Below are positions 1,467-55,100 of a stretch of 64,000 bases of DNA, one piece after another. Under the pieces are notes generated by a model. That model had not been told where the DNA came from and did not search any database. It saw nothing but the letters and a program-made list of their open reading frames with translations. The DNA lies in NCBI GenBank assembly GCA_029213025.1, contig JARGOZ010000010.1, positions 1 to 64,000 of the forward strand. The letters run 5' to 3'. Position numbers and translations under genes: made by a program. How positions within the stretch are numbered: position 1 is the first letter of the stretch; every line of letters starts with the position of its first letter. The DNA comes from Verrucomicrobiales bacterium (lineage in GTDB: Bacteria; Verrucomicrobiota; Verrucomicrobiia; Verrucomicrobiales; DEV007).

Positions 1467-2765
1467 ATGAGTAACAATGTCACATTTTTGAAAGGAAATC
1501 CCCGTGCCTGCGCCCTCGAGTGCCTCCATGACTGGGAGAACTCGACGACTTATGCTCATGAAATTTTTGGCTATCAGGCGGATCGATACGAATTGAAGCC
1601 GGTAGACCGGGGGCTCGCCAAAGAACTGCTTTTTGGAACGCTCCGCCATCTCAGCTTTCTCGATAAAATCATCGATGAGTTGAGAAAGAAAGGTTCCCTG
1701 AAAATGTCGGCGCGCTGCCTCCTTCGTCTCGGGGTATATCAGATTTTTCAGACGAAAATCGCTGATCACGCAGCGGTTCACGAAACCGTTAACCTGGCAC
1801 GTAAACATGAGCGCCCCCTCGTAAATGCAATTTTGCGAAATGCGATTCGTCAGCAGGAAAATTTCGTCGGGAAATCTAAAAACTGGACTCCGGCGGAACG
1901 CTATTCACACCCTGCGTTTCTGATCGAGCGGTGGACCGCTGAATTCGGCGAAGATACCGCAGCGGCTCTTTGCGAATGGAACAATACGCCACCTCCCGTT
2001 TATGCCCGAATTCATGATGAAGAAGGCTACCACGAGCGACTTAACAGGGTACAGTCTGAAACGGTACAGGGTACAGTCGGGGATTCAACAGGGTACAGTC
2101 CGGAGCCGGTTGCCGGTTTTCCGGAGTTTATCAAACTGCCTTCAGGTCCGCTGCCTACGGAGTGGATCGAGTCGGGAACGATTTATATTCAGGATCCGAG
2201 CACCTCACTCGCCTGTTGGCTGCTGGCTCCACAACCGGATGAACTCATTCTCGATACCTGCGCCGCCCCGGGCGGAAAAACGATCCAGCTGGCGTCGATG
2301 GCACCGGCGGGGACGAAAATCATTGCCACTGATTCAAATCCGAAGCGAATCGAAAGGATGGAGGAAAACTTCTCGCGGATGCAGATCGAAGGAGTCACAA
2401 CCCGCGAGGTGGACTGGACCCGGCCGAGCCAAAAGCAATTGACTGAATTACCGAGATTTGACGCGATTTTACTCGATGTTCCCTGCTCAAATACCGGTGT
2501 GATGCGACGGAGGGTTGATGTTCGCTGGCGGCTCCGCCCGTCGGATTTTGCGGAACTGGCTGCTCTACAGCTGAAAATCCTGAAAAATGCGATGCGGGTT
2601 CTCAAGCCGGATGGCCGGATCGTTTACAGCACCTGTTCGATCGATCCGGAAGAAAACCGTAAGCTGGTGGAAAGCTGTGGTCTAAAGATTGTGGAAATTC
2701 GGGAAACAGTTCCGTGGAAAGACGGCGTCGACGGCGCTTTCACCGTGTTGCTGCGCCCGCATTAA
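1467..2765 (+). CDS. rsmB: 16S rRNA (cytosine(967)-C5)-methyltransferase RsmB
   Basis: SAM-dependent m5C methyltransferase of the RsmB/NOL1/NOP2/Sun family, acting on 16S rRNA C967. Residues about 1-135 form the NusB-like RNA-binding domain. The Rossmann methyltransferase domain holds the SAM loop DTCAAPGGKT (about 262-271), the motif IV cysteine in DVPCSNTGV (C340) and the motif VI cysteine in YSTCSIDPEEN (C390). Both cysteines needed for catalysis and product release are present. At 432 residues the length is normal for the family. The oddity is an in-frame array of three 22-bp repeats at about residues 193-212, between the NusB and catalytic parts. It reads NRVQS, VQGTVG and STGYS. The ATG at 1467 is preceded in frame by a TTG at 1464; neither has a strong Shine-Dalgarno. 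Confidence 0.92.
   Translation: MSNNVTFLKGNPRACALECLHDWENSTTYAHEIFGYQADRYELKPVDRGLAKELLFGTLRHLSFLDKIIDELRKKGSLKMSARCLLRLGVYQIFQTKIADHAAVHETVNLARKHERPLVNAILRNAIRQQENFVGKSKNWTPAERYSHPAFLIERWTAEFGEDTAAALCEWNNTPPPVYARIHDEEGYHERLNRVQSETVQGTVGDSTGYSPEPVAGFPEFIKLPSGPLPTEWIESGTIYIQDPSTSLACWLLAPQPDELILDTCAAPGGKTIQLASMAPAGTKIIATDSNPKRIERMEENFSRMQIEGVTTREVDWTRPSQKQLTELPRFDAILLDVPCSNTGVMRRRVDVRWRLRPSDFAELAALQLKILKNAMRVLKPDGRIVYSTCSIDPEENRKLVESCGLKIVEIRETVPWKDGVDGAFTVLLRPH
2042..2100 (+). repeat. 22-bp tandem array, three copies, inside rsmB
   Basis: The core ACAGGGTACAGT starts at 2044, 2066 and 2088, exactly 22 bp apart, with about 9-10 variable bases between cores. The third copy carries the fuller left flank GATTCA. 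The three copies are read in three different frames by the rsmB coding sequence. A block of three units is 66 bp, so it preserves the frame. The same family occurs at 14476, 26783, 35783, 42206 and 53781. Confidence 0.95.
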
Positions 2766-2819
2766 GCTTGCGAAAAAAGCTGTATTGCCTATTCTGTAAG
2801 GAACCATTTTTATCGTCTC

Positions 2820-4268: not shown

Positions 4269-4270
4269 CC

Positions 4271-4600: not shown

Positions 4601-4752
4601 ATGTTCTTATTACACGATTGAAACCGATTTTTGTAAACCCTAATCCCCCTTCGTTTTCGCCTAATTTACGCGTGTCACACTCCCTGGATACGGGGCAAAT
4701 TTTGTAAGATTTAGATTTACAAAGTTGGAAAAAATGGCTTTCTTCGCATCCA

Positions 4753-4808
4753 GTGGGTGTTACCCACCAAACCAAGGGAAAGCTGCCGTCAGATATTATG
4801 TCTGGCGG
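4753..4808 (-). terminator. Two hairpins downstream of the M32 carboxypeptidase gene
   Basis: In the 224-base gap 4601-4824 there are two inverted repeats. One, at 4786-4808, has 8-base arms with one imperfect pair and a 7-base loop. The other, at 4753-4767, is GTGGGT-GTT-ACCCAC with perfect arms. They follow the carboxypeptidase stop on the minus strand and may end its transcript. Neither has a good T-run, so this is a weak call. The rest of the gap is AT-rich and must hold the promoter of the 4271-4600 gene; I see no clear -35/-10 pair. Confidence 0.3.
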
Positions 4809-4824
4809 TGGCATTGGCTCTGAA

Positions 4825-7757: not shown

Positions 7758-7759
7758 TT

Positions 7760-8536: not shown

Positions 8537-8540
8537 CACA

Positions 8541-11703: not shown

Positions 11704-14466
11704 ATGACCGTAAGGAAACTGCCTGTCTTCTTGTTGATTTTTTCCTCGATATTCTCACAACGGTTAGCCGTTGCCCAGGCGCCCCGATTACCCTGGGCTC
11801 CCGGTGAACAAAAAGCTCAGCAGGATTTTGAGAAATACCAAAACAACGGTGACTTTGCGAATGCGGAAGTCGCGGGAACAAAACTGGTATGGATAGCGCA
11901 GAAGTATAGAGGTCGGGAGCATCCGGATACTGCGATGAGACTGACTCAGTTGGCTCTGTTCCACAGTATACATACCGGAGGTCATGAGAAAGCGACTCCG
12001 TATTACCAGGAGGCAATCTCAATCTTGAAAAAGCATTTCGGGCACGACCATCAAAATCTGGCCTACCCGCTAATGAACCTCGCGGAAAACTATCGAACCC
12101 GGGGTTTCTACGCTGACGCGGAGCCCATCTACGCGGAGGCTCTACGGGTTGCTGAAAACCGGCTCGGTCCCGGTCACATGGCCACATCGACGATCCTTCA
12201 TAACTTCGCCAATCTGTATGTAAATACCGGGGACTCCGCAAAAGCGGAGCTGTATTATCTACGCTCAATAAGGATTAAGGAAGAACAGCAGATGGGATTG
12301 GCTAATCCGGAACTTGCCATGACCTACGGCAACCTCGCTTCTGTTTACTATAAATCCGGGCAATATCAAAAATCGGAATGGTATAACATGGTGGCGCTAA
12401 AGATCCGGAAAAAGTTGGGTATTACAGATTCCCCGGATTTAGCTTTTAACTACAGCAACCTCGCAAATGTATATCTGGCCACGGGAAAATTTTCGGAAGC
12501 GGAACCCTTGTTTCGGGAAGCGATCCGAATTTATGAATTTAAGGGCGATGTCAGTCCCTATATGGCATTTCCGTTCCACGGTCTGGGTGAAATTTACTTT
12601 TCCAGGGGAGATTATGGCAACGCCCGGGCGAATTTTGACCGGGCTTTGGAGATCCGGGAGACGCAATTAGGATTAACCCACCCTGATACCGCGAAGACTC
12701 TGACCTATCTGGCGCTTGTCTCCTATCTGGGTGCCGCTCCCAAAGAGGCCGTCGGTTTTGCGCGCAGGAGTTCGGAAGCGAAACTGAAGAATCTGGAAAA
12801 TGTACTTACATTTACCACGGAGCGGGAACGTTTCGCGTTTCTTCGGGGAGCGGAACCCTACGACATTCTCGCAACTTTGAAAGCGGGAGAGGAAACCGCA
12901 AACGCAATATTGGCCTACAAAGGTATCGTCCTCGAAAGTATACTCGAAGACCGCCGAATGTTGAAAGCTCTGAGTAGTCCGGCGCTGGAGGCGTCTGTGA
13001 AAAGACTCGATGAGCTAAAGTCGAGATTGAAACCGGTATTGGTCAATACTCAATCCCGCAAACAGAACCTGACCGGAATTACTGCGGGAAAGCTGGAATT
13101 TGAGAAAATTGAAAAAAGCCTCGCCCGGTCGATATCGGGTTTCGGCAATACCAGAGGCTCACTGTCCATCACTTACCGGCAGGTGGCCCTTCGCCTGCCG
13201 AATGATATGGCACTGCTGGAATTTATTCGCTATCGCAATCATTTTGATAAGAAGAACGACTGGTATGGGGTCGTGGTCATCCGCCGGGACAGAAAACCGA
13301 AGTTTGTATCACTGGGCCCGGCGAATTCAGTGGAAAGTGAAATCACGGCGTTCCGCGAAGAAATCGCGAAAGTCGCCTACGGAGAGTCAAATAACGAAGA
13401 GATTGAGCGAAGATCGAAAATCCTTGATAAGCTTTTGATAAACGGGCTTCAGGCTCACCTGGTTGGAATCAATAAGCTGATTGTCTGTCCCGATGCCGCC
13501 CTGAACTTTCTGCCGTTTGCTTCATTGTTAGACCAAAACAACCGGTTTCTCGCACAGAGATTTTCGGTCTATTACGTGGCAAGCGGTAGAGATTTGATTG
13601 CCAAAGTTGTGCCTTCAGATCGACAAACCGGTGCGCCGGTAATTATAGGCAATCCAAATTTTGAGATGGTAAACAACCCACCGGGCAATGTAGCTGACCC
13701 GAAGGAGCCGCAAGGTGCTTTTCTGCTCGCGTTACGATCGGGCTTCCGGTCAGAAAACGGCAAAATTCAGCTGGCACCGTTACCGGGAACCGGAATTGAG
13801 GTGACCCGAATTAAAGAGGTGATTGAAACAAATAGCACCGGCAAGAACGAGGTGATAACGTTATCGGGCGACGCTGTTACCGAGCAAGCAGTGCGTAACC
13901 TGGAAGCTCCGGTAATTGTTCATCTCGCTACCCATGGATTTTTTATGGAAGATACCTGCCATAGCGGCGCTGAATCAATTTCGGGGCATTTCCAAAACCC
14001 GATGTTCCGCAGCGGGATCGCTCTGAGTGGAGCCAATGATACGTTTACTGCCTGGAATCAAAACAAGGTGCCGGATATGGAAAACGACGGAATTCTTCTC
14101 GCGGCAGAGGTCTCGGCTCTGAATTTGAGCGGCACACAGCTGGTTACCCTCAGTGCCTGCAATACGGCGATGGGTGACATAGTTTCCGGGGAGGGAATTT
14201 TGGGCATGCGCCGTGCCTTTGTCATGGCCGGTGCCCGAAATGTGATGATGACTCTCTGGGAAATCCTCGATGATCCAACCCCGGAATTTATGGATGATTT
14301 TTACCGTCGCTATTTGAAAATTGGTAATGCGCCAGAGGCGCTGGCGCAGGTGCAAAGGGAGTGGCTAATGCGATTGCGCAAAGAGTCGGGCACCGGGGCG
14401 GCCATCTATATCGCAGGAGGATTTGTGATGAGCGCCCAGGCCCAAAGTGAGTCCCTGCCGAGGTAA
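11704..14466 (+). CDS. Exported TPR-CHAT domain protein
   Basis: The protein has 920 residues. It begins with a signal peptide (LPVFLLIFSSIFSQRLAVAQA). About eight tetratricopeptide-type repeats of the kinesin-light-chain kind follow (about 50-340), recognisable from recurring YGNLA..Y and YSNLANVY. A linker leads to a C-terminal CHAT domain, a caspase-fold protease module. The expected catalytic dyad is visible: histidine in HLATHGFF (H744) and cysteine in LSACNTAMG (C819), before GEGILGMRRAFVMAGARNVMMTLW. CHAT proteins cleave partner proteins in stress and defence systems, but many are of unknown target. The signal peptide places it outside the cytoplasm. No obvious partner gene is adjacent. 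A three-unit 22-bp repeat array follows its stop. Confidence 0.87.
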   Translation: MTVRKLPVFLLIFSSIFSQRLAVAQAPRLPWAPGEQKAQQDFEKYQNNGDFANAEVAGTKLVWIAQKYRGREHPDTAMRLTQLALFHSIHTGGHEKATPYYQEAISILKKHFGHDHQNLAYPLMNLAENYRTRGFYADAEPIYAEALRVAENRLGPGHMATSTILHNFANLYVNTGDSAKAELYYLRSIRIKEEQQMGLANPELAMTYGNLASVYYKSGQYQKSEWYNMVALKIRKKLGITDSPDLAFNYSNLANVYLATGKFSEAEPLFREAIRIYEFKGDVSPYMAFPFHGLGEIYFSRGDYGNARANFDRALEIRETQLGLTHPDTAKTLTYLALVSYLGAAPKEAVGFARRSSEAKLKNLENVLTFTTERERFAFLRGAEPYDILATLKAGEETANAILAYKGIVLESILEDRRMLKALSSPALEASVKRLDELKSRLKPVLVNTQSRKQNLTGITAGKLEFEKIEKSLARSISGFGNTRGSLSITYRQVALRLPNDMALLEFIRYRNHFDKKNDWYGVVVIRRDRKPKFVSLGPANSVESEITAFREEIAKVAYGESNNEEIERRSKILDKLLINGLQAHLVGINKLIVCPDAALNFLPFASLLDQNNRFLAQRFSVYYVASGRDLIAKVVPSDRQTGAPVIIGNPNFEMVNNPPGNVADPKEPQGAFLLALRSGFRSENGKIQLAPLPGTGIEVTRIKEVIETNSTGKNEVITLSGDAVTEQAVRNLEAPVIVHLATHGFFMEDTCHSGAESISGHFQNPMFRSGIALSGANDTFTAWNQNKVPDMENDGILLAAEVSALNLSGTQLVTLSACNTAMGDIVSGEGILGMRRAFVMAGARNVMMTLWEILDDPTPEFMDDFYRRYLKIGNAPEALAQVQREWLMRLRKESGTGAAIYIAGGFVMSAQAQSESLPR

Positions 14467-14475
14467 ATGCAGATC

Positions 14476-14534
14476 GTACAGGGTACAGTGCCGCATCCAA
14501 CAGGGTACAGTCCCGGACCTAACAGGGTACAGTT
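14476..14534 (+). repeat. 22-bp tandem array, three copies, between convergent genes
   Basis: Cores ACAGGGTACAGT start at 14478, 14500 and 14522, spaced exactly 22 bp. The array fills almost the whole 82-base gap between the stop of the CHAT gene and the stop of the aldolase/dehydrogenase gene. Left flanks are CGT, GCATCCA and GGACCTA. No other terminator is evident in this gap. Confidence 0.95.
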
Positions 14535-14548: not shown

Positions 14549-16522
14549 CTAAATTACGCGGTCATTACCACCGTCGACCGGGATTTGAGCGCCGGTTGTT
14601 TTGCCGAAAAGCGGACTCGCCATCGCTGCCACCATATTACCAATATCTTTGGATTTGATTTCAGTTTTGAGCAGATTCCGGGTTTTGTACTGTTCCACAG
14701 TCATGTTGTAGCGCTCCGCAGAGCGCTGCAGGTTTTCCGGTGTCCAGAGTTTGGTATCAAAAACAGCGTCGGGGTGGATGATGTTACAGCGCACTCCTTC
14801 CGGAGCGAGTTCCAGAGCGGCGACACGGCAGAGCTGTGTCAGACCGGCTTTGGCACAGGAATAGCTGGCTGCACCGGCTCCGGGAGCATTGACATTCCGT
14901 GAACCGACAAGAACGATCGAGGGTTCTCCGAGACCTTTTTTCAAATAGGGAATGGTGTGTTTGAGAAGTTTCTGGTGACTGGTAAGATTCACCGCGAAGG
15001 ATTTATCCCAGTTGGATTGCTCGAGCTGATCCAGGTAGGCTCCGGCGGTGAAAATTCCGGCGTTACTGACCAGAATATCGATTCCCCCAAAGTCCCTGAC
15101 TACCGAAGCGATGGTCTCGATGACTTTTTCATCGTCGGTGAGATTGGCGACGATGCCGATTCCGTTTATCTTCGCCATTTGCTCTTCGATTTCGGGGCTT
15201 AAATCAATACCGATTACTTTGGCGCCCTGTTCGGCGAGGGATTCGGCACAGGCATATCCAATTCCGGCTGCGGAACCGGTCACCACAGCGACCTTGCCCT
15301 GATGAATTGGAGCAGCACCTCCCTTGCGAAGCTTGGCCTGTTCGAGTTCCCAATACTCGATCTCGAATAAATCGGAGGCGGGCAGCGGTTTCCATCCACC
15401 TTCAAATGCAGCTTCCGAAATCTGGATCGTCTTCCAGGTGTGTGTGATGATGTCCTGGATAATTCCTGCTTCTTTCTCGGTGGAGCCAAAGCTGATCACG
15501 CCTTTTCCAGGCCACACGACCCATTTCGGATCGGCAGAGAGCATGGTTTCGCCCTTGTTGTATTCCTGAAAGTAGGCTTCGTAATCCGCAGCAAAACCGG
15601 CGATCGACTCCTCAATGCTTTCGCCAATAACGGCTGGAATTCTTTTGGTGCGAATGGTGTGATCGGGTGTCAGCGGACCCCGGGTGGCAAGATCGGCGAC
15701 ATCCGGGCGGGAGGAAAAGCCCACTGCTTCCGGAGATTGATCGATTTTCGCATAGACCGGCGAGCCTTTCAGTCCGCCGACCTTTCTGCGGATCAGCGCC
15801 AACTCCTCCAAATTCTCTTCGGCTGCAGCGGTTGGCGCGGAGTAAGCTCCTGTCTGGCTCGCGAGATGCTCCTCCGCCATTGTTACGAGTTCAATCATCA
15901 GCTCGTAACTCTTCTTCGCGTCATCGTGGAAGGTGAAGATTCCGTGGTTCATTAGAATCAGACCGTCGATGGATGTCGGATCGATTTCGGAAAGTTGCTT
16001 TGCCACTTGTTTGGAGAGATCAAAGCCGGGCATTACGTAGGGAACGATAAGAACCCGGTCGCCATACACCTCGCGGATGGTCTGTTCACCGTTTTTGTGA
16101 TTGGTGAGAGCCACAACAGCGTTTGCATGTGTGTGATCGACAAACTTCTGCGGAATCACGGCGTGGAGTATGGCTTCGATGCTGGGATTGGGGGCGGATG
16201 GATTGAGCATCGCGGCGCGTTGTTGCGCTACCATTACGGGGTCGCTTAATTCTTCGAGCGCCGCCATTTTCAGCAGGGCATTCATCCGGACCGGAGCGAA
16301 GCCTTCTGCCTCGATGGTGCCAAGATCCCAACCGGAACCTTTTACATAAAGCACGTCTACGGGATCGCCGAAAAAATCTTCTTCACTGATTTTTACCGAA
16401 GTATTACCTCCGCCATGAAGAACCAGTTCCGGGTTTGCACCGAGAAGTTGCGATGTGTAGACCCGCATGGCGAGATCTCCGTTAAAATTTGCTGCGTCAG
16501 TATCGGACCAAAGTGATTTCAT
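14549..16522 (-). CDS. Bifunctional class II aldolase / short-chain dehydrogenase
   Basis: The two enzymes are fused in 657 residues. Residues about 20-400 are a class II aldolase/RhaD-like domain with zinc-ligand histidines in DHTHANAVVALTNH and MNHGIFTFHDD. Residues about 405-657 are an NAD-binding short-chain dehydrogenase with VTGSAAGIGYACAESL, a SNAG motif and the YSCAKAG tyrosine-lysine pair. This arrangement matches the RhaD/RhaE-type fusion that cleaves rhamnulose 1-phosphate and oxidises L-lactaldehyde. Other sugar phosphates are possible. No other rhamnose genes are present in the window. It is divergent from the large cytochrome protein at 16706. Confidence 0.9.
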   Translation of the reverse strand: MKSLWSDTDAANFNGDLAMRVYTSQLLGANPELVLHGGGNTSVKISEEDFFGDPVDVLYVKGSGWDLGTIEAEGFAPVRMNALLKMAALEELSDPVMVAQQRAAMLNPSAPNPSIEAILHAVIPQKFVDHTHANAVVALTNHKNGEQTIREVYGDRVLIVPYVMPGFDLSKQVAKQLSEIDPTSIDGLILMNHGIFTFHDDAKKSYELMIELVTMAEEHLASQTGAYSAPTAAAEENLEELALIRRKVGGLKGSPVYAKIDQSPEAVGFSSRPDVADLATRGPLTPDHTIRTKRIPAVIGESIEESIAGFAADYEAYFQEYNKGETMLSADPKWVVWPGKGVISFGSTEKEAGIIQDIITHTWKTIQISEAAFEGGWKPLPASDLFEIEYWELEQAKLRKGGAAPIHQGKVAVVTGSAAGIGYACAESLAEQGAKVIGIDLSPEIEEQMAKINGIGIVANLTDDEKVIETIASVVRDFGGIDILVSNAGIFTAGAYLDQLEQSNWDKSFAVNLTSHQKLLKHTIPYLKKGLGEPSIVLVGSRNVNAPGAGAASYSCAKAGLTQLCRVAALELAPEGVRCNIIHPDAVFDTKLWTPENLQRSAERYNMTVEQYKTRNLLKTEIKSKDIGNMVAAMASPLFGKTTGAQIPVDGGNDRVI

Positions 16523-26300: not shown

Positions 26301-26844
26301 AGGTGTGGAGGAGATGGTGCGTGTCCTCGGTGCCAAATCCGGACTGCACGACCCGTCGGTGATCTGCTTTACCGTCTCCGTCGGTGTCCTTTAAAAACAG
26401 CATTTCAGTGGAGTTGGCCACATAGGCACCGCCATCGCCGGGGAGGACCGCTGTCGGAATATGCAAATGATCGGCAAACACGGTCGATTTGTCAGCCGTG
26501 CCGTCTCCATCAGTATCTTCCAGAATAATGACCTGATCGATCTCTTCCTGTCCGGGCGCGATGTGGGGATAAAGCGGACTACTCACCACCCAGAGTCGGC
26601 CCTGAGTATCCCAGTTCATATGGACGGGTTTTTTCAGAAGCGGTTCAGCCGCGAAAATGTTGATTTTGGCTCCTTCCGGAAGTTTAAAACCGGCCGCCTG
26701 GTCTTTGACGTCAGTGCTGGGAATATCGCGCAGCCCGTTTTGTGCGGTAGCCAGTCCCGAAACGACCGCAACAATGATGACCGTACAGGGTACAGTCCAT
26801 GACCTAACAGGGTACAGTCTGTTGAAAAAGTTGATTGGTGTCAT
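23374..26844 (-). CDS. PVC-type heme-binding dehydrogenase with HEAT repeats and cytochrome c domain
   Basis: About 1156 residues, exported. Order: signal peptide; a beta-propeller of the membrane-bound dehydrogenase type (about 35-400, with VHMNWDTQGRLWVVSSPLYP and a DTDGDGTAD loop); HEAT-like repeats (about 470-830); a cytochrome c domain with CMVCH at about 879-883 in the Planctomycete Paracoccus-type context GGAGGIIGPDL; and a C-terminal beta-rich domain. I chose the ATG at 26844, one base after the SGNH gene stop, because the frame upstream overlaps that gene. The signal peptide contains two copies of the 22-bp repeat (about residues 9-20, reading LYPV and TVPCT), which is striking. Likely sugar-alcohol or sugar oxidation in the periplasm, but unproven. 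Confidence 0.87.
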   Translation of the reverse strand: MTPINFFNRLYPVRSWTVPCTVIIVAVVSGLATAQNGLRDIPSTDVKDQAAGFKLPEGAKINIFAAEPLLKKPVHMNWDTQGRLWVVSSPLYPHIAPGQEEIDQVIILEDTDGDGTADKSTVFADHLHIPTAVLPGDGGAYVANSTEMLFLKDTDGDGKADHRRVVQSGFGTEDTHHLLHTFRWGPEGMIWMNQSIYIHSHLETPYGIRRLLGGGMWSFRPETHRAEVFMKGLINPWGHVFDKYGQSFMTDGAGSEGINFVYPKSVFRTSPGASRFLSGLNPGQPKHCGAEVLSGAHLPEEYIGTIAAADFRGHRVNRFKVTENGTSAYTSTQVEDLVSCTHRAFRPIDVKMGPDGAVYIADWYNPIIQHGEVDFRDERRDHEHGRIWRVTFEDRPLDKKADLSKMNEESLAKLAGPVGWNEQMATVELRMREKDAALAGIKSAWKTEGDSDLKKLHLIQASQATNQFRKDWAVDLAINSKSPQVRAGAIRAIYYHASETTAAKEVAEKAVKDPHPRVRLWGVSLLSELPYPDTVQTALCALEGIEEPDDFLDFAVWNICREHDYKWLSAAESGNPFETPAQLLYAMSAVNTKTGSASLFSALKNGKFASQKDISDLCEWAARSASPDQLDVLFSKAKEKDTADAQKSIILASLANAAKLRRTKPKSDLDSVTDFLKSKNNAIFEQAALLAGYWKISSARTDLEKAFLGKDAFRANAALAGLRVFGGAQTGEFLSQLARNPKAPISQRTRAITGLSKFSPAAAARIAAASLPTFQDTAAAGEVFAAFLSNNNATTHLTNALSAKGVTLPEPVALAGIQKASGAATKPDALIKAIQKAGSLKPMKMALTAEEMEAMMNAVATTGDPHRGEIVYRRASLQCMVCHAIGGAGGIIGPDLVSIGSSAPVDYLIESLLEPGKKIKEGYHTTLVTLKNGDTFAGAVAREDKNEIVIRDAAGNENRIAKNQIKNQTISPVSLMPPGLTLQLREDEFIDLVRFLSELGKEGDFKTTATTYIRSWQVLQPHERTRDDIGFYGKKIFGEDDKTYQWTKLYAKVDGHLPVNEMPSVVGRGRNRYGVARFEFKAPSNTKLKLKIEGKTKDMNLFLNEQEIELPENGNAAQLDIPVKPGDHRITISGLKGWGLDQFRVAVVDAGKADLQ
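26783..26820 (+). repeat. 22-bp tandem array, two copies, inside a signal peptide
   Basis: Cores ACAGGGTACAGT start at 26785 and 26807, exactly 22 bp apart, with the left flank TGACCTA before the second copy. The host gene runs on the opposite strand, so the array is antisense to it and encodes LYPV and TVPCT in the n-region and start of the hydrophobic region of the signal peptide. Confidence 0.95.
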
Positions 26845-26845: not shown

Positions 26846-27844
26846 TCAGGCAGGTTTAGAAGGATTCTGGATTTTGGTCCGGATTTCGTTGATCGTTGCT
26901 TCTCTTTCTTTAATGAGCGGATCAAACATCGGGATTTCTTTGGCATTGTTTCCCTGCTCATGTTTACGGAACAGAAACAGGTAGGTTTCGTTGGCGGGGC
27001 GCCAGCGATGGAAAAAGAGCCGGTTTTTCTCAACAATTTCCGAGCGAAGTTGAGTGAACTTCGAGTAATCGGATTTGGCGATTCTCTCAGCGGGCAGTTT
27101 CAGGCCGGTAATTATGTGATTGGCGATCATCTGATAACCAGCATCACCGTAGTGGATTCCATTTTCAGTGAGCGCAGGTTCGGCAACCTCGCCGGAATGC
27201 CCAATGGCCGAAAACAGATCGATCGTCTTGTAGTTATTCTCCCTGGCGAGCTTCACGATAGCTTTTGAAAAAGCGGCCAGATTTTTGTTATTTTCCACCT
27301 GATCGGGTAGAGGTGGCCCGAGATTCTCCAGAGGAGGCGGAGTGATTAAGATGATCTCGCGCAGGTCTTTGCCGGCGGAGTTGCGGATATTGTCAATCAA
27401 CTGGCGGTAGCCGGAGATAAAAACATCCAGATCCGATTCCAAACCAGCCCCGATTACCGAAGTCACTGCGTTTTGTTCGTTAGTCCACTGCTGGTTGATC
27501 GACATGGCTGCTCCGGTGCCATAGCAGATCATGACGACATTCGGGCGCATCTCACTGATTGCTTTACCGAGCCGTTCCCGGCCTTCTGAAGGTGGGCCGA
27601 AATACGAGCGGGCATCATTGAAAACTGAGTCACCGCTCCAACCGAGATTTCGGAAAACGAGATTTTTTGCCTCCGACGCAACCAGTATATGGCTCTCGAT
27701 GTGGCCGTAACTTTGGGCTCTCTCGACAAAAGTATTCCCGATGAAGGCCACCCGGTCATTGTCGCGCAGGATTTCCTCTGCGGACAAATTGTAAACGGCC
27801 ATAATCGCCGAAATAATTACTAAATACCAAAAATTTTGGACCAT
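26846..27844 (-). CDS. SGNH/GDSL-like hydrolase of the PVC type
   Basis: Exported protein of about 332 residues with an N-terminal signal (LVIISAIMAVYNLSA). The fold markers of SGNH hydrolases are present: block I VAFIGNTFVERAQ, block III-like VVMICYGTGAAM and block V ENGIHYGDAGYQMIANHI with the catalytic-type histidine. Block I has GNTF instead of GDSL, so the usual nucleophilic serine is missing. It is linked to the PVC heme protein by a one-base gap and lies downstream of DUF2141. I chose the ATG at 27844; a GTG at 27865 is also in frame. It may be a binding protein or use an alternative nucleophile. Confidence 0.75.
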   Translation of the reverse strand: MVQNFWYLVIISAIMAVYNLSAEEILRDNDRVAFIGNTFVERAQSYGHIESHILVASEAKNLVFRNLGWSGDSVFNDARSYFGPPSEGRERLGKAISEMRPNVVMICYGTGAAMSINQQWTNEQNAVTSVIGAGLESDLDVFISGYRQLIDNIRNSAGKDLREIILITPPPLENLGPPLPDQVENNKNLAAFSKAIVKLARENNYKTIDLFSAIGHSGEVAEPALTENGIHYGDAGYQMIANHIITGLKLPAERIAKSDYSKFTQLRSEIVEKNRLFFHRWRPANETYLFLFRKHEQGNNAKEIPMFDPLIKEREATINEIRTKIQNPSKPA

Positions 27845-27930
27845 CTCGAAATGTAGAGACGGCACGGAATGAAATCAAATTATGAGTCAATCCTGATTGC
27901 GCTTTTTGCCGATCAATCGATCCGCAAATA

Positions 27931-35261: not shown

Positions 35262-35966
35262 ATGGGCCATTCGATCTTCATTACAGGAACTGACACGGGG
35301 GTTGGTAAGACCTTTTTCACCACCGGAATCATTCGCGCACTTCGGGAACTCGGTGTCGATGTGGTGGGTTTTAAGCCTATCGAATGCGGTGGGCGGTCCG
35401 ACAGCAAAGCTCTTCTGGAGGCTTCCGGCGAACCGTATTCTCTGGATGAAATCAATCCGGTCTGGCTGGATCAGCCTCTTTCTCCCCTGGCTGCAATGGA
35501 TTTTTCTGATGAAATTCCATTGGAAAGCATCAAGAAGGCGCACCTGGATCTGGTGGATCGGCATGAGTTGGTCATTGTCGAAGGGGCCGGTGGTTGGCTC
35601 GTTCCGGTGACGGAAAATCAAACTATGGCCGACCTCGCAAAAGAAATGTGCGACGAAGTGATCATCGTGGCCGCCAACCGGCTCGGGGTTATCAATCATA
35701 CCATGCTGACCTACCGGGCCATCGCAGCCATGAACATGGATTGCGCCCGGATGATTCTAAACCATCCACCGGTGAATGAGGGTGATTCAACAGGGTACGG
35801 TCCGCGACTGTACCCTGTTGAATCACTGCCGGTCGGATCTTCAGCAGATTTGTCGCTCGCCAGCAACGCAAGTACGATTCAAAAATGTCTTCCTGATCTG
35901 GATTTATTTCCGCTGCGCAACGAGACTTGTTTCGCTCAGCTGGCTCAGTCCCTGTTCGCCGGTTGA
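35262..35966 (+). CDS. bioD: Dethiobiotin synthetase with a repeat-derived insertion
   Basis: ATP-dependent carboxylase that closes the ureido ring of dethiobiotin from diaminopelargonic acid, the penultimate step of biotin synthesis. The P-loop is GTDTGVGKTFFT, followed by FKPIECGG and the catalytic region VEGAGGWLVPV. MILNHPP is the nucleotide-base motif near the C-terminus. 234 residues is normal to slightly long. The oddity is residues about 174-188, DSTGYGPRLYPVES, encoded by the two facing repeat copies at 35783-35825, immediately after NHPPVNEG. No other bio genes are nearby. Confidence 0.92.
   Translation: MGHSIFITGTDTGVGKTFFTTGIIRALRELGVDVVGFKPIECGGRSDSKALLEASGEPYSLDEINPVWLDQPLSPLAAMDFSDEIPLESIKKAHLDLVDRHELVIVEGAGGWLVPVTENQTMADLAKEMCDEVIIVAANRLGVINHTMLTYRAIAAMNMDCARMILNHPPVNEGDSTGYGPRLYPVESLPVGSSADLSLASNASTIQKCLPDLDLFPLRNETCFAQLAQSLFAG
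35783..35825. repeat. Inverted pair of the 22-bp repeat family forming a hairpin inside bioD
   Basis: The left arm TGATTCAACAGGGTAC (35783-35798) and its exact reverse complement (35810-35825) are each 16 bases. Allowing one G-U pair, the stem extends to 20 base pairs with a CGC loop, 43 bases in all. The left core is ACAGGGTACGGT (one mismatch) and the right core, on the minus strand, is exact. The bioD frame reads through it. Confidence 0.96.
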
Positions 35967-42111: not shown

Positions 42112-42205
42112 TCCAAACCGTAAGATCCAGTTTTGGAACCGCAAGCAGTAAGAAAATCCAGGCCCGTATTCGGTTCGCTCCTTTTGAGGACAGCTTAATC
42201 CGCCG

Positions 42206-42243
42206 TTCAACAGGGTACAGTCTTCGATTTAACAGGGTACAAT
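42206..42243 (+). repeat. 22-bp tandem array, two copies, intergenic
   Basis: Cores start at 42210 (ACAGGGTACAGT) and 42232 (ACAGGGTACAAT, one mismatch), 22 bp apart. The left flank of the first is TTCA. The array lies directly next to the pnp terminator hairpin and upstream of the secreted-protein gene. The same variant core ACAAT also occurs in the array at 53781. Confidence 0.93.
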
Positions 42244-42248
42244 GAACG

Positions 42249-42309: not shown

Positions 42310-44448
42310 TTAGCCTTCAGCCAGTTCTTTCTCGGCTTCCTCACCGCGCTCTTCCATAGCTGCTTTGCGGCTCATTTTGACGCGTCCTTTTTCGTCGATC
42401 CCGATGCACTTGGCGTAAACCATGTCACCAACTTTGACTACGTCTTCCACTTCCTTCACGCGGAAATCGGCGAGTTCAGAGATGTGAATCATGCCGTCTT
42501 TGCCGGGGAGAACTTCGATGAAAGCTCCAAAGTTGGTCGTGTTAACGATCTTACCATGGTAAATGACACCGATCTCGATCTCAGCAGTCACGCGCTTGAC
42601 CAATTCGATCGCACGCTGGAGACCTTCACCGTTGGCTGCATAGATATTGACAGTTCCATCATCGTCGATGCTGATATCGGCACCGGTTTCGCTCTGGATT
42701 CCTTTGATGTTCTTACCACCAGGTCCAATCAATTCACCAATCTTGCTGGGATCGATTTGGAAGCTCTCGATTCTCGGCGCGTATTCGCTGAGTTCGCTGG
42801 CGTTTTTGATCACTCCGTCCATCACATCGAGGACTTTCATCCGTCCGTTCATGGCCTTATCGACACCTTCATTCAGGATGTCCAGCGGGATACCAGGGAG
42901 CTTAAGGTCCAACTGGTAGCCGGTCACACCTTCACGGGTTCCGCAGAGTTTGAAATCCATGTCACCGAAGAAATCTTCGCTGCCGATGATGTCGAGAATA
43001 GTGACGTGCTTTTGGATGTTGCCGGCATCATCCAGCTCTGTAACCAAACCGCAGGAAATACCCGCCACGTTAGCCTTGATCGGAACACCGGCATCAAGAA
43101 GCGCAAGTGAGCCGGAACAAACCGATGCCATGGAAGTCGAACCATTGGATTCCATGACTTCGCTGGTTACACGAATGGCATAGGGGAACTCCGCCAAATC
43201 CGGGATAACCGGTTCGATGGAACGCTCCGCCAAAGCTCCGTGTCCAATTTCGCGGCGGTTCATACCACCCATTCTTCCGCATTCGCCAACTGAAAAAGGC
43301 GGGAAGTTGTAGTGAAGAATGAAACGCTTGGTGTCTTCGCCACCGGCGTAGTTGTCGAGATACTGAACTTCGTCACCGGGAGCAAGAGTCGCCAAAGCGA
43401 GGGCTTGAGTTTCTCCACGGGCAAACAGGGAGGAACCGTGCGTTCTTGGCATTACGCTGGTTTCAGCGGAAAGATCACGGATATCGTTTTCGCCGCGTCC
43501 GTCCATTCTTTTACCTTCGTTGAGCAGAGAAAGGCGGACTGACTTTTTCTGCATGTAATCAAAAGCCTGATTGATTTCGAAACTGCCGGCATCTTCAAAT
43601 TTTTCGATAACTGCAGCTTCCACTTCGTCACGAAGAGCGCCGACTGCTTTTCCACGAGCGACTTTCTGCTTAATCATGAGAGCCTCTTCGATGCGGTCAC
43701 CGGCCACCTGGTAAGCGATGTCGAGAATTTCGTCTTTAACGAGGAGAAGATCGGATTCGCGCTTCTCTTTTCCACAGCGTCTCATGAGCTCTTCCTGAGC
43801 ATCGATGAGCGGCTGAATGGAATCCTGAGCGAACGCCAGAGCTTCTTTAAACTTGGCGTCGGGAACCTCGTTACCGGCCCCTTCAATCATGATCACCTTG
43901 TCGCGAAGACCGGCGTATACGAGATCGAGTGTGCTTTCTTCGCGCTGTTCGAAAGTCGGGTTGGCAACAAATTCGCCGTTTACCAAACCAACACGAACGG
44001 CGGCGATGGGTCCAGCAAAAGGGATGTCAGAAACACAAAGAGCGGCGGAAGCGCCGTTCATGCTCGGAATATCCGCATCGTTAACCATATCGGCACTCAA
44101 GAGCAGAGAAATGACCTGTGTGTCGTAGAAATAACCCTTCGGGAAAAGCGGGCGCAGAGGACGGTCAGTCATCCGGCAGGTGAGAATTTCCTTTTCAGTG
44201 GGGCGACCCTCCCGTTTGAAATAACCTCCGGGAAAACGGCCGGCAGCAGCTGCTTTTTCTTTGTATTCTACAGAAAGCGGGAACCAGTCCTGGCCTTCTC
44301 TTATACTGGTTTGGGACACTGCTGTAACCATTACAATGGTGTCACCTACACGGACGGTAACGGCACCATCTGCCAATTTACCCATGCGTCCGACTTCGAA
44401 TTCGATTTCCTGCGCGCCGACCTGGCACGTCACTTTTTCAATGCTCAT
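42310..44448 (-). CDS. pnp: Polyribonucleotide nucleotidyltransferase (PNPase)
   Basis: Phosphorolytic 3'-5' exoribonuclease of the degradosome. Order: two RNase PH domains (about 1-230 and about 310-540; KEKAAAAGRFPGGYFKREGRP and FSVGECGRMGGMNRREIGHGALAERSI are characteristic), an alpha-helical linker, a KH domain (IGPGGKNIKGIQSETGADISIDDDG) and a C-terminal S1 domain (GVIYHGKIVNTTNFGAFIEVLPGKDGMIHISELAD). 712 residues is normal. It follows rpsO with a 166-base gap, as in many bacteria. A hairpin in that gap could attenuate or be a processing site. Confidence 0.97.
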   Translation of the reverse strand: MSIEKVTCQVGAQEIEFEVGRMGKLADGAVTVRVGDTIVMVTAVSQTSIREGQDWFPLSVEYKEKAAAAGRFPGGYFKREGRPTEKEILTCRMTDRPLRPLFPKGYFYDTQVISLLLSADMVNDADIPSMNGASAALCVSDIPFAGPIAAVRVGLVNGEFVANPTFEQREESTLDLVYAGLRDKVIMIEGAGNEVPDAKFKEALAFAQDSIQPLIDAQEELMRRCGKEKRESDLLLVKDEILDIAYQVAGDRIEEALMIKQKVARGKAVGALRDEVEAAVIEKFEDAGSFEINQAFDYMQKKSVRLSLLNEGKRMDGRGENDIRDLSAETSVMPRTHGSSLFARGETQALALATLAPGDEVQYLDNYAGGEDTKRFILHYNFPPFSVGECGRMGGMNRREIGHGALAERSIEPVIPDLAEFPYAIRVTSEVMESNGSTSMASVCSGSLALLDAGVPIKANVAGISCGLVTELDDAGNIQKHVTILDIIGSEDFFGDMDFKLCGTREGVTGYQLDLKLPGIPLDILNEGVDKAMNGRMKVLDVMDGVIKNASELSEYAPRIESFQIDPSKIGELIGPGGKNIKGIQSETGADISIDDDGTVNIYAANGEGLQRAIELVKRVTAEIEIGVIYHGKIVNTTNFGAFIEVLPGKDGMIHISELADFRVKEVEDVVKVGDMVYAKCIGIDEKGRVKMSRKAAMEERGEEAEKELAEG

Positions 44449-50272: not shown

Positions 50273-50287
50273 CCGTTTAGTTGTAGC

Positions 50288-51958
50288 TCAGACTAAATTC
50301 AGATCGTTGAAAGAATCCACTACTGGCGATACCGCGCTTATGAGTTCTCCCTGCTCGGAAATTGAATCGTAGAGAGACGTAATCAATGGTTCGAGGCTGT
50401 TGGAAGTTTCATTACTGATCAGCGGCGCTTTTGCCCCGGGTTTTCTGTCTATGGCATCGTAAACAGCATTGTAGACGGGTTCCAGCATGCTGCTGAGCAC
50501 CGTGCGCCCGTCAAAGTTACCATCTTCGATCAACGATGACCGTAAATCGACTGCCTGAACCGCAAAAATCAGAGAAACTGCGGCGTAGCGATTTGACAGA
50601 TCGACGGACTGAGAGGCGAGATTGGCTGCGCCCCAACTCAAGCCGTTGATATTTTGATTGTACTGTTCAGCATGGGTAGGGAAGTCATCCACCAAAGGTT
50701 TACCCAGATGGGTAATCATGGGCATAATCGAATTACCCAAAATCTGCAGCCCTTTCAAATTCATATCGATCGGAGAGGAGCCCTGTTGAGTGAGAGACGC
50801 TGGCAAACCGTGATTGAATTCCGGTGATACCAACAAGGCAATCTGTACATCGAGGTGTTTGGCGATCAGACCCAGATATTTCCTGAGATCATCCATAGCC
50901 ATGCCGATGTATTGTCCGAGAAAATTACCGCTCTGATAAAAACGATCACATCCGGTATCAATCAAAGGATTGTCAGTGATTGAGTTCATCTCGGTCTCGA
51001 TAGTTTCCTCTACCCGCAGCATACCGTCGACGATTGGTCCCATATACTGGGGCAAACAGCGAATCGAATACCGGTCCTGGAGATGGTTTCCGCTGGAAGG
51101 ACGGGTATAATCAACGTCCAGCAAATCCCTCATCATTTCAGCGGACCAGATTTGACCGCGATGAGGCTTGCAGCGATGAACAAATGAAGCAAACGGATCT
51201 TCGTGGGCGAGCAAAGCCTTCGCCATCATGGCGTGCGCGGCGAAGGAAATTCCCAGAATATTCTTTGCCGAATGCAGGTTGTTCGCCGCGATAGCGGTGG
51301 AAAAGGTGGTGCCGTTTACGATCGCCAGACCTTCCTTGGGTTGTAATTCGATTGGCTTCAGCCCGGCAACTTGCAGCGCTTCGTCTCTTGAGATTTCCCG
51401 GTCGCTGCCGGTAGTGATTTGGCAGGGTGCCGCCTGGCCGGTAATCGCTCTGGCAATCACAGCGAGAGGCACAAGATCGCCACTGGCACCGATTGACCCC
51501 AGTTCACCCACTACAGGTGTGAGATCTTCGTTCAGAAAGGCAACCAGCCGCTCTACTATTTCCATTCTCACTCCGGAGGCACCGCGCAGAAGCATATTCG
51601 CCCGCAAAAGCATAGTCGCCCGGACGTGCTCTTTCGGAATCGGCTTACCTGTGGAACAGGAAAGAAATTCGAGCAAATTTTGCTGGGATATCCCGGCGTC
51701 TGCGGAGGATACCGGTAAATCAGCCATTCCTCCGAAACCGGTGGTAATACCGTAAATTTTTTGCCCCTCGTCAACGGCTCTGCTCACAGCATCTTCCGCC
51801 AGTTTCATCCGGGTCCTGACTTCCCCGCTGTCAGTGATGGATACCTTTTTCGCCCCATACGCAACTGACTGAATGTCTTCAATATCCAGTGGGTCGCCGC
51901 ACAGACAAAGGGTCGCAGGTTCGCAAAGTGTCAGATTATGGTAGCTGTGGTTTGTCAA
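50288..51958 (-). CDS. Aromatic amino acid ammonia-lyase (HAL/PAL/TAL family)
   Basis: 556 residues of the MIO-dependent ammonia-lyase/aminomutase superfamily. The MIO triad is A158-S159-G160 in GSIGASGDLVPLA. The catalytic tyrosine is Y69 in IYGITTGFGGM. The substrate-selectivity pair is F98-L99 in NLLEFLS. In known enzymes Phe-Leu goes with phenylalanine, His-Leu with tyrosine and Ser-His with histidine, so a phenylalanine lyase (cinnamate former) is favoured. The start is a TTG at 51958 with no Shine-Dalgarno; the next methionine is at residue 51, too late. Histidine catabolism is less likely because no hut genes are near. Confidence 0.87.
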   Translation of the reverse strand: MTNHSYHNLTLCEPATLCLCGDPLDIEDIQSVAYGAKKVSITDSGEVRTRMKLAEDAVSRAVDEGQKIYGITTGFGGMADLPVSSADAGISQQNLLEFLSCSTGKPIPKEHVRATMLLRANMLLRGASGVRMEIVERLVAFLNEDLTPVVGELGSIGASGDLVPLAVIARAITGQAAPCQITTGSDREISRDEALQVAGLKPIELQPKEGLAIVNGTTFSTAIAANNLHSAKNILGISFAAHAMMAKALLAHEDPFASFVHRCKPHRGQIWSAEMMRDLLDVDYTRPSSGNHLQDRYSIRCLPQYMGPIVDGMLRVEETIETEMNSITDNPLIDTGCDRFYQSGNFLGQYIGMAMDDLRKYLGLIAKHLDVQIALLVSPEFNHGLPASLTQQGSSPIDMNLKGLQILGNSIMPMITHLGKPLVDDFPTHAEQYNQNINGLSWGAANLASQSVDLSNRYAAVSLIFAVQAVDLRSSLIEDGNFDGRTVLSSMLEPVYNAVYDAIDRKPGAKAPLISNETSNSLEPLITSLYDSISEQGELISAVSPVVDSFNDLNLV

Positions 51959-52186
51959 ACTGATAAAGGTTGGTTGACGTTATCAAAACATACAAGTCCT
52001 GTCATGCGGAAATGTTATGCTTTTATGTATATTCTGGAAAATATACTCAATTTAACTGTATTTGAAAGACTTAAATAACTTTAACGATGGTTTTTTTAGT
52101 AAATTCGGCGCTTTTGTTAGAAATTACCGGTTCATCTATTGGTATAAGGAACGCAGTCGAAGCGGTTTCATGTATTTTCGACTTTT
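51959..52186 (-). promoter_or_regulatory. Promoter region of the ammonia-lyase/acyl-ligase operon (228 bases)
   Basis: The longest noncoding stretch, AT-rich, between the RND pump stop and the lyase start. It contains a perfect dyad GTATATT-CTGGAA-AATATAC at 52027-52046, described separately. No strong -35/-10 pair is visible. The 3' end of the pump gene has no obvious terminator, so read-through is possible. Confidence 0.45.
52027..52046. promoter_or_regulatory. 20-bp dyad upstream of the ammonia-lyase gene
   Basis: Perfect 7-base arms GTATATT and AATATAC with a 6-base spacer, about 70 bases before the lyase start. Its size fits a dimeric regulator operator. On the minus strand it overlaps a weak promoter-like TTGAGT with 17 bases to CATAAA. 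No regulator gene is adjacent. Confidence 0.45.
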
Positions 52187-55100
52187 TTATTCAGGATCGT
52201 AAGTAGCCGGGTAGGCGCGACCTATAAACAGCAAATATACCGATGGGACAAAACACAGGGCGAGGAGGGTAGCTCCGCCCACTCCACCCGCAATTGTGGT
52301 TGCTACCGGTGGCCAGAATCCACCATCGTCGAGCATGAGAGGGATAAAGCCGGCAATTGTGGTCAGCGTGGTAGCCAAAATATGTCTGGTTCTCCGGATA
52401 ATGATTTCAGCAATCGCCGAGGGCACCCCAACCCTTGCTTCCGGGTCGTCGCGGATTCCAGCCATCACGACGATGGCGTCATTCACAGCAACTCCAACCA
52501 AACCCATAGTTCCTACCACCCCCATAAACCCGAAGGGAAATTTAAACAACCAAAGTGAACCCAGCCCCAGACCGATGGAAAGCCCGCCTACCAGTGCAAT
52601 TACCAGAGCAACCCGAAATGATCGAAATGACGCCACCAGTGTTGCTATGATCAAAGCGATCAACAGGGGAATATTCGCCATCAAATTGTTCACTGCTTCG
52701 TCGCGCTTTTCCGCTTCGCCGCCGTATTCGAGAGAATAACCCGGCGGCAAAAAGAAATCCGAGTTGGCAAGCCGTTCCTTAAATTCCGTTATGACGAGAT
52801 CGGGAAGCGTGCCTGCAGTGATATAAGCTCTCACCTCGTTGAATCTCTGACCGTCGCGGCGGGTGATTGCGGCGACCTCCGAACCGAGTTCGAGTTCACT
52901 AATAGCGGCGAGGGGGAATCCGCTTCCTGGTTGATGCAGGTGCGGCGACTGTAGTTCAAGTGTTGCAATATCACCGGTGTTCTGTCGAGTCAGGCTGTCA
53001 GTCCGGACCCGAATCGGTATTTCCTCAGTGCCGTCGATCAGCGAACCACTGTGGAGGCCTTCCAGAGATGAATACAGCTGATTTTCGATCTCATGATTGC
53101 TGAGTCCGGCTTTGCGGACGTCATATTCGTCGAGTATTACAGCCAGTTTCGGGACAATTTCGTTTAGATCCGCGCGAGTGTGAACGACTTCATTAGTCTC
53201 GGCCAGAATCAGCCGAACCTTGTTGCCCAGTTTTTGCAAAATCGCGATGTCAGGTCCGAACAGTTTTACTTCCACCGGGGCTTTAAACGGAGGTCCCTGT
53301 TCCAGCTGACGGACGAGGACCCGGCAGGTCACAAATTCGTCATCCACCTTGTTCTGCATTTTGCGAATAATCTCGCGCGAATTTACTCCGGGCTCACATT
53401 CCACCAGCGCTTGACCATAGAAAGCTGCATTGCGGCGTGAGGCCATCATGTTGTAGAAAAAAGCCGGGGAACTTTCGCCGATAAACCAATGGACCCGCTT
53501 TACTCCGTCCATTTTCAGAACAGAATCCCGAATCGCGGCCGCTGTCTTCCTCGTCTCTGCTAACGTGGTGGAGGCAGTCATCTCCATTTCGATTTGGAAC
53601 TGCTCCCGGTCTGCCGGCGGGAAAAACTGCTCGGGCAAACTACGGGAAACGTAAAATCCGGTCACAGGCAGGAGAAATCCAATAACCACCCCGAGAACCG
53701 GCAAATGAAACAATTTTACCAGCAGCCAACGATAAACTTTAAGCAGAAATTGGCTGTAGATCCCACGCTGCAAAAAGCCGGACTGTACCCTGTTGGATGT
53801 GGAACTGTACCCTGTTGAATCACCAATTGTACCCTGTTGAGTCTTGCCTGGTCGGAACAAAAGTGCGGTGAGCGCCGGGATTACGGTCATCGCAAGAAGG
53901 AACGAAGCGTTGATCGCAAGAATCACGCTGATCGCAATCGAACCGACAAATTCACCACTGGAACCCGGCAGCATCACGATAGGGGCAAAGGCGAGGGTAG
54001 TGGTTAAGGTCGACCCAAACAGCGGCAGCCCGAGCTGCCGGATTGTTTCGGTAATCGCCTCCAGCGGGCTTTTTCCTTCCCTCAAACCGTTGCCTACCTC
54101 ATCCACCATGACAATTGCGTTGTCGATGAGTAATCCAAGAGCAATAATCAGGCCGGTTACCGACATTTGATGAATCGGTATATCAAGGACCCGCATACCG
54201 CTGATCACAATCAGTGTGGATAGCGGGAGAGCCACTCCGACCACGATCATACTCCTCCAGCCCATCAGCAGAAAAACAACGATCACCACAGCCAATGTCC
54301 CGACAAGGAGGTTTTTAGCCAATTGAGTGAGACGGTCCTGCACATAAATATTCTGCGTGAACAAAACATCCAATTCGATTCCGCGAGGCAGGCTATCTGT
54401 AAACTCAGCGAGTCTTTCGTATAGATCTTCGTTCCAAAGATCGATACGGCTTTCATCCCGGACGAACGCAGCCACGACAATCGAATCTTTCCCGTCGACG
54501 ATGGTCATGCTGTCCGGAGGGGATTTGACGCCTTTTTTGATCCGGGCAATTTCATCGAGTCTGGCCAACTCATTTGATCCATACCGAATCGGGGTTGAGC
54601 CAATTCGCTCGAGGGAATCGAGGTCCTGATCGAGTTCAATGACCAATTCGGAATCCTCGCCCCGGAACATTCCCGCTGAACGCTTCGATTCACTTTGTTC
54701 AATCTGCTGAGAAATGTTGCCAATCGAAACGCCCAACCGGTGGAGATTTTCGCCCGGAACCTCGATAAGCACCTCTTCCTTTTGTTTTCCGAAAATCGCA
54801 ACGCTCTCCGTTCCCGGCAGAGCGCGGATAATTGCCTTCAAGTCTTCACTCAACCGGGTCAGAATAGTGAAATTTGGCTGTTCATCACCGGTCCACTGCA
54901 GTGCAACGATCGAAGCGTAGGACCGCATTTCCGGCCGCTCGAACTCCGGGTCGTGAGCTTCATCGGGAAGGGATTTCGTCGTTTCCGATATTTCATCGCG
55001 GACGCGGGACCAAACGGTATCGACATCTGTGACCTCCTCCTTGAGCTCAATGGTGACCGTCGAAATACCGGCCATGCTCTCCGAGGTAATATGCTTTATC

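Follow-up and report, generated by a model that had tools for sequence, protein, structure and literature searches.

The DNA studied here is a 64,000-bp stretch (the window: positions 1 to 64,000 of contig JARGOZ010000010.1) from a Verrucomicrobiales bacterium whose 7.88-Mb genome is coded G000; its relatives are congeners with codes of the same kind (G002-G031 etc.). The window contains six arrays of a short repeated site, lying within or between genes of varied function (Table 1). The core of this site, ACAGGGTACAGT, occurs 15 times, with 12 exact copies and three with one mismatch. A first-pass annotation had listed these copies, and we confirmed all of them at their positions, together with the exact 22-bp spacing within each direct array and the inverted pair at 35790/35807. 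When up to two mismatches are allowed, the window has 17 matches to the core, against 1.7 expected.

Table 1. Arrays in the window with their host and neighbouring genes.
Feature	Position	Strand	Remarks
Three-unit direct array (+++)	2038..2100	+	63 bp, in frame inside RsmB-type 16S rRNA methyltransferase gene
RsmB/F rRNA methyltransferase gene	1464..2765	+	Host gene; Pfam PF01189, PF01029
Three-unit direct array (+++)	14472..14534	+	Intergenic, between convergent genes; 5 and 14 bp from stops
CHAT/TPR gene	11704-14466		Left neighbour of 14472-14534 array; convergent with aldolase/SDR (short-chain dehydrogenase) gene
Aldolase/SDR gene	14549-16522		Right neighbour of 14472-14534 array; convergent with CHAT/TPR gene
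Two-unit direct array (++)	26779..26819	+	26 bp past stop of GDSL-lipase gene; overlaps only the doubtful 5' end of a DUF7133 open reading frame (ORF)
GDSL-lipase gene	26846-27865	-	Neighbour of 26779-26819 array
Two-unit inverted array (+-)	35784..35824	+	41 bp, C-terminal part of AAA_26 (BioD-like) ORF
AAA_26 (BioD-like) ORF	35262-35966		Holds 35784-35824 array
Two-unit direct array (++)	42204..42244	+	Intergenic, 65 bp downstream of PNPase gene
PNPase gene	42310-44448	-	Neighbour of 42204-42244 array
Three-unit direct array	53781..53843	-	In frame inside AcrB-type RND transporter gene
AcrB/AcrD/AcrF-family RND transporter gene	52187..55516	-	Host gene; Pfam PF00873

Architecture of the arrays

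A genome-wide count of the core had been proposed in the first-pass annotation as a check on its repeat family. The count is far above chance: if one mismatch is allowed, the whole genome has 1470 copies, compared with 20 for a reversed control, and there are 773 exact copies, compared with 0. Over-representation of a short motif on this scale is a property of the DNA uptake sequences (DUS) and uptake signal sequences (USS) of other bacteria.

In a first sample of 644,666 bases, made up of the window and 40 contig pieces, adjacent cores with at most one mismatch are 22 bp apart in the same orientation (++), 17 bp apart when they converge (+-) and 27 bp apart when they diverge (-+); a distance of 44 bp was seen once. 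Hence, the 22-bp spacing noted in the window recurs outside it, as one of several lattice distances. All three distances follow from a single rule: units of 19 bp alternate with free spacers of 3 bp, and every orientation is allowed. The unit is a pseudo-palindrome, GAYYNAAC-AGG-GTACRGTC, in which two 8-bp half-sites flank AGG. The ten or so bases between cores that the first-pass annotation had taken to be variable are therefore mostly conserved, with just the three spacer bases free. The few pairs that fall off the lattice involve weak, chance-level matches.

Our final sample covers 958,670 bases in 47 pieces, with N stretches left out. It contains 80 arrays, of which 41 have two units, 28 three, nine four and one six; the remaining array is a single site, such sites being counted from a score of 16 of 18. 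Thus, 79 of the 80 arrays have at least two units. Seven reversed sequences given to the same array caller yielded no arrays. There are hundreds of arrays per chromosome, both here and in relatives of the genus.

Units within an array are not recent copies of each other. Adjacent units in the same orientation (105 pairs) differ at a mean of 3.98 positions, compared with 3.99 for random pairs of units, and two adjacent pairs are identical, compared with 1.2 expected. Units within an array are therefore no more alike than units from different arrays, unlike those of a tandem repeat or minisatellite. Tandem duplication does not explain the arrays, and the pitch must be held by some reader or function.

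Position relative to genes and conservation within the genus

Where do the arrays sit with respect to genes? According to our own simple gene caller, 12 of the 80 arrays in G000 are inside predicted genes. Among the 63 intergenic arrays with both flanks called, 35 have a stop no more than 30 bp away (null 8.3 ± 2.6), and a stop is the nearest gene boundary for 44 (null 26.0 ± 3.9). In the congener G007, 13 of 42 arrays fall within genes; of the 29 intergenic ones, 15 have a stop no farther than 30 bp away (null 4.5 ± 2.1), and for 19 the closest boundary is a stop (null 12.4 ± 2.8, P 0.015). No clear strand preference of the intergenic arrays was seen when they were read by eye.

These positions bear on two alternative explanations. 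Palindromes in cooperative arrays, with the geometry of ArgR boxes, recall the operators of a global transcription regulator. However, there are hundreds of arrays, their nearest boundary is mostly a stop rather than a start, 12 of 80 are inside genes, they are evenly spaced (see below), and their neighbours are mixed. We consider it improbable that they are operators. The concentration just past stop codons would also suit elements that act at the RNA level, such as terminator hairpins. In that case, a stem should be kept by compensatory change, as expected of repetitive extragenic palindromic (REP) sequences and bacterial interspersed mosaic elements (BIMEs). Positive covariation was absent at six mirrored arm pairs in 97 units of G007 and 203 units of G000, and the outermost mirrored pair in G000 is complementary more rarely than expected (z -3.1). 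Moreover, the stem is broken by the dialects of G000 and SLGN, there are arrays in the middle of genes, and the intergenic ones favour neither strand clearly. We regard an RNA-level role as extremely improbable. The mirrored arms, varying without covariation, point instead to the symmetry of a protein dimer site.

The first-pass annotation had placed four of the six window arrays inside genes, which is too many. Those at 2038-2100 and 53781-53843 are inside genes, and those at 14472-14534 and 42204-42244 are intergenic; the array at 35784-35824 is within an ORF, in its C-terminal part, and that at 26779-26819 touches an ORF only at its doubtful 5' end. The suggestion that the reading frame is kept through the three-unit length also does not generalize. 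Of nine arrays in G000 that lie at least 100 bp inside a gene, six have three units (63 bp, or 21 codons) and three have two units, and 11 of the 13 in-gene arrays of G007 are 41 bp long.

Pfam matches of the array neighbours in the window are mixed (RsmB, PNPase, an amino-acid kinase with ACT domains, AAA_26, CHAT/TPR and others), and neighbours outside the window, read by eye, include MutL-, KdsB-, PyrH- and HisG-like proteins. From these two sources, no single regulon or gene class is apparent. Some features of the window genes are worth recording in their own right. The gene at 14549-16522 fuses a class II aldolase domain to a short-chain dehydrogenase domain, and 11704-14466 encodes a TPR-CHAT protein; such proteins are frequent in caspase-like or defence settings. 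The RND pump family represented at 52187-55516 is greatly expanded in the genus, with 27 matches here and up to 25 in congeners. Two short tandem repeats in the window, at 51585-51622 (18 bp x 2.1) and 19259-19283 (13 bp x 1.9), are unrelated to the arrays.

Arrays inside genes can be followed into other species of the genus. For the RsmB array, we fetched 19 congener loci, of which 17 could be displayed at the array position. Exact AACAGGGT is retained in 6 of the 17, and in three of these (L102, L103 and L109) a second core, exact and inverted, sits on the lattice as well. Other loci are graded variants, while some, such as L107 and L108, show no array. Two units make up the array of G028 at this position, and in G029 the dialect of that genome is found there, in reverse orientation. 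Of the array's arginine codons, the first is AGG in 9 of 11 scorable orthologues (RVxSE stretch; P 5e-11) and the second is AGG in 5 of 8 (P 1e-5), in a test that counts related species as independent; across the rest of these genes, AGG encodes 27 of 577 arginines. As judged from the sequences, this codon preference is a DNA-level constraint on the RsmB array.

For the pump-gene array, two cores at 22-bp pitch occupy the same codon position in the orthologues of G028 (68% identity) and G002 (65%); the right arms are degenerate in both, and one G002 core has a mismatch. The array is absent from the G004 orthologue (58% identity). Searching more widely, we found a usable gene for 48 of the 80 arrays and kept 39, which gave 33 gene pieces. 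A scan of G028 returned 18 putative orthologous loci for 17 array sites, one of which (L285) stops at the match itself. Three have an array in the corresponding place, 32-89 bp past the gene match, making the pump gene a fourth conserved site. The first-pass annotation had held that shared residues in orthologues from other genera would speak against a repeat family of its kind. Orthologues with the same residues do exist within the genus, which indicates that some arrays are old and not spurious; beyond it, the pattern of two cores is found in 0 of 23 genomes.

Are the arrays mobile? The first-pass annotation had offered as one explanation a repeat that moves or expands in the way of Rickettsia palindromic elements, and a mobile or self-expanding small repeat (also including REP/BIME and small dispersed repeats) settling in permissive places would account for many dispersed copies, an intergenic bias and in-frame residence in genes; arrays of mixed orientation recall BIMEs. 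In 54 arrays, target-site duplications were no more frequent than in shuffled flanks, bar one 9-bp case. This sole array with a flanking 9-bp direct repeat (L043, 11435-11475) provides the only hint of an insertion-like footprint.

We also compared G031 and G014, a close pair of congeners, for which the flanks of 15 of 21 arrays could be located and then aligned; identity is mostly about 90%, with a range of 70-93%. None of these 15 orthologous sites is a clean empty site, with three (L225, L230 and L233) aligning one-sidedly or poorly; at L233, the G014 array is barely recognisable. Differences between the two genomes are chiefly point substitutions, with one exact 22-bp unit and one 8-bp deletion. 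Insertion at empty sites, the hallmark of Rickettsia palindromic elements and small dispersed repeats, was thus not found, the absence of the pump-gene array from G004 notwithstanding. Given these observations on duplications and occupied sites, together with a tandem-repeat search of the window, we rejected mobility. Adjacent units that are not duplicates, even spacing and a different spelling throughout G029 count against it too, and the explanation is in our judgement highly improbable.

At the 12 well-aligned sites of the G031/G014 pair, identity is 165/176 in the core, 124/138 in the arms, 99/115 at variable positions and 1133/1304 in the flanks. If gapped cells (16 core, 64 flank) are counted as differences, the core and flank values become 165/192 and 1133/1368, and the contrast is almost gone; two deletions account for most of the gapped core cells. 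We take this comparison as weakly supporting constraint on the arrays. Exact pairs number 25 in G031 and 5 in G014, indicating that gain or decay of arrays is ongoing.

Spacing along the chromosome and dialects

The arrays are spaced much more evenly than expected by chance. In G000, 43 gaps between arrays have a mean of 10.0 kb and a coefficient of variation (CV) of 0.56, whereas random placement gives a CV of 0.96 ± 0.14 if uniform and 1.09 ± 0.15 if confined to intergenic DNA. Only four gaps are shorter than 4 kb, compared with 16-18 expected. Neither value was reached in 3000 shuffles of either kind. Many pieces of the G000 sample, among them several long contigs, were known beforehand to carry matches, and the null was conditioned on counts; an apparent 91-kb gap on contig C338, about 70 kb of which reads N, was left out.

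The same analysis was applied to three long contigs of G007 (794 kb), in which 44 arrays were called, with none in the reversed control (CV 0.44, null 0.95 ± 0.13). When two split calls are merged, 42 arrays remain; their 39 gaps range from 6.2 to 31.4 kb, with a mean of 17.4 kb. The CV is then 0.37 (null 0.95 ± 0.13), and no gap is shorter than 6 kb, compared with 10.9 expected. The first 66 kb of contig C52 are array-free, and their omission from the null changes nothing. Most of this region is taken up by two giant ORFs (L312-L314, 4092-33434 and 33668-59878) of 9780 and 8736 residues. For direct arrays among the matches listed in G029, 2 of 58 gaps are shorter than 4 kb (8.2 ± 2.3 expected, P 0.004) and the CV is 0.69 (null 0.84 ± 0.09, P 0.027). 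Array density is one per 12 kb in the G000 sample and one per 19 kb in the G007 sample.

How widely do the arrays occur? We searched 56 genomes, the congeners among them being drafts of varying completeness, for two cores with at most two mismatches. There are 797 matches in G000, and 31 of 32 congeners are positive, with 1 to 208 each; seven of these have only one or two matches, equal to the level of the reversed control (0-2 per genome), and their membership is not established thereby. When three cores were sought in 84,980 genomes, 70 stretches matched; 67 of them are labelled Verrucomicrobia or Verrucomicrobiales, with no genus given. The other three (L162, L170 and L185), labelled Tannerellaceae, Vampirovibrionales and Saprospiraceae, were rejected as arrays: their tandem anatomy is that of ordinary minisatellites with a repeat of 21-22 bp and AACAGGG as its core, and the likeness probably comes from the search pattern. 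In IMG/VR, an arm-bearing pair with the AACAGGGT spelling had no matches. Three stretches matched by the bare triple in that spelling (L332, L333 and L334) are all minisatellites; the repeats of the six non-array stretches overall are 11, 21 or 22 bp long.

Within the genus, the arrays are spelled in dialects: GAYTCAACAGGGTACAGTC in G000, GACCCAACAGGGTTGGGTC in G007, GACCTAACAGGGTTAGGTC in JAHDCN, GATCNAACAGGGTCTGATC in JAEUHH and GACCGAACAGGGTTGGGTC in SLGN (15 units). The last three were read from loci picked with a pattern that has C or T after GGGT, and that position is biased. AGGGT is constant across the dialects read. Restriction to a lineage, species dialects and an invariant core are all characteristic of DUS and USS.

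Exact ACAGGGT pairs range from 745 in G000 down to 0 in G003, G016, G021 and G029. The last of these genomes uses a different spelling, AATAGGGTACAAT, at 21-bp pitch. It has 402 AATAGGGT pairs, nearly all of those among the matches listed being at 21-bp pitch and one at 22; elsewhere in the genus, AATAGGGT pairs occur only in G018 (three), with none in the remaining 31 genomes. Of the other spelling, G029 has a few copies (three exact 12-mers and no exact pairs). Spelling and pitch can thus differ for an entire genome. Hence, a count of zero may mean another dialect, and we claim absence of arrays for no congener. When a few short loci from nine congeners with low counts were examined for other dialects, one weak pair emerged, in G003.

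A putative reader of the arrays and comparison with known systems

What reads the arrays? We conclude that each array is very probably a cooperative binding platform for a putative sequence-recognising protein. The first-pass annotation had considered that a dimer or a helical array might bind here, and this idea has fared well, given a pseudo-palindromic unit, arms that vary independently, a pitch of two helical turns and freedom of orientation. One dimer would bind each 19-bp pseudo-palindrome through the 8-bp half-sites around AGG, and at least two dimers, 22 bp apart, would be needed, which would explain why single sites are nearly absent. The arrays would remain where they are, altered by point mutations and now and then by a unit gained or lost, rather than transposing.

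What would such a reader be for? Our favoured function, which we put forward tentatively, is that it marks self DNA for exchange, in the manner of uptake sequences. Fragments that bear arrays would be taken up or recombined preferentially, so that arrays would build up by molecular drive in permissive places, just past stop codons and at times in frame within genes. Another array less than about one fragment length away would add little, leading to an even spacing of 10-20 kb. Drift in the specificity of the reader would be followed by the sites, giving rise to dialects. More broadly, the genus may have a code of evenly spaced cooperative arrays, in which one putative reader drives hundreds of sites per genome and of which the spelling and pitch (22 to 21 bp) were switched in one species; this broader reading, of a new array-type self-DNA tag or chromosome ruler, we consider as likely as not.

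Several points weigh against the self-DNA tag. ComEC is present in 29 of 33 genomes of the genus and in 23 of 23 good ones; it permits transformation but is widespread and without discriminating power. The arrays consist of multiple units, are palindromic and have roughly a tenth of the density of DUS and USS. A simulation of molecular drive, with a CV of 0.44-0.56 at 0.8-1.7 sites per fragment length, speaks for the tag but is a toy with parameters that we chose. Array-free stretches do not appear to be islands, since the 33-kb C153 holds ordinary genes (SufBD, PTS enzyme I and CusB). The relatedness of species in the AGG test and the effect of gapped cells on the G031/G014 contrast belong here as well. 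The reader is a putative protein deduced from its sites, which counts equally against a role as chromosome organiser, and the even spacing fits such an organiser equally well.

The main rival is that a protein organising the nucleoid or chromosome is anchored at the arrays, as SlmA, Noc and MatP are at their sites but cooperatively and genome-wide, with ties every 10-20 kb. Palindromic, orientation-free sites at a fixed helical phase, even spacing in three species, the AGG codon constraint in RsmB and the lack of a visible link to one gene class are all in keeping with this. Uptake sequences are, according to PMC1939737, less evenly spaced than expected of compaction sequences, and in this respect the very even arrays are unlike them. 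On the other hand, array spacing varies between G000 and G007, it would be unusual for the sites of an essential organiser to be spelled and pitched otherwise in one congener, and the strong bias to non-coding, stop-adjacent positions resembles that of weakly selected elements filling free space. We consider an organiser possible, if rather unlikely, and continue to favour the self-DNA tag.

Either reading predicts a protein that binds DNA at hundreds of sites. Should the arrays be uptake tags, they would represent a further independent origin of self-recognising transformation, with dialects over dozens of genomes in which to study the co-evolution of code and reader. If they are chromosome anchors, they provide bacterial chromosomes with a ruler defined by sequence, on a scale of 10-20 kb. 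The arrays also complicate gene annotation, since proteins can have sites built into them in frame.

How do the arrays compare with known systems? Our searches of an open-access library turned up nothing on the motif, or on such arrays in Verrucomicrobia. Tandem operators of the ArgR type consist of two pseudo-palindromes with 3 bp between them, whereas the arrays are genome-wide and not promoter-associated. REP and BIME elements form hundreds of intergenic arrays in mixed orientation, frequently past stop codons; the arrays differ in having neither hairpin covariation nor signs of mobility, and in being evenly spaced. The sites of SlmA, Noc and MatP are palindromic, chromosome-wide, orientation-free and read by dimers, with tens per genome that are conserved over wide taxa. 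The arrays resemble them in the first three respects but number hundreds per genome and change their dialect.

The closest likeness is to uptake sequences. Known ones are single sites, at about one per kb, and we know of no earlier uptake tags built from cooperative arrays. PMC3630211, PMC2397512, PMC7811141 and PMC1939737 describe dialects around an invariant core, copies adjacent to stop codons and a relatively even distribution for DUS and USS; many recent DUS are attributed to recombination rather than point mutation in PMC2397512. Like the arrays, the DUS of Neisseriaceae and the USS of Pasteurellaceae are thus lineage-restricted and present in many copies, with dialects and an invariant core, and they lie just past stops, with some copies in coding sequence, in a relatively even distribution. 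We do not class the arrays as DUS or USS, since nearly all have more than a single site. They differ in consisting of at least two palindromic units at 21- or 22-bp pitch, placed 10-20 kb apart, in a different phylum.

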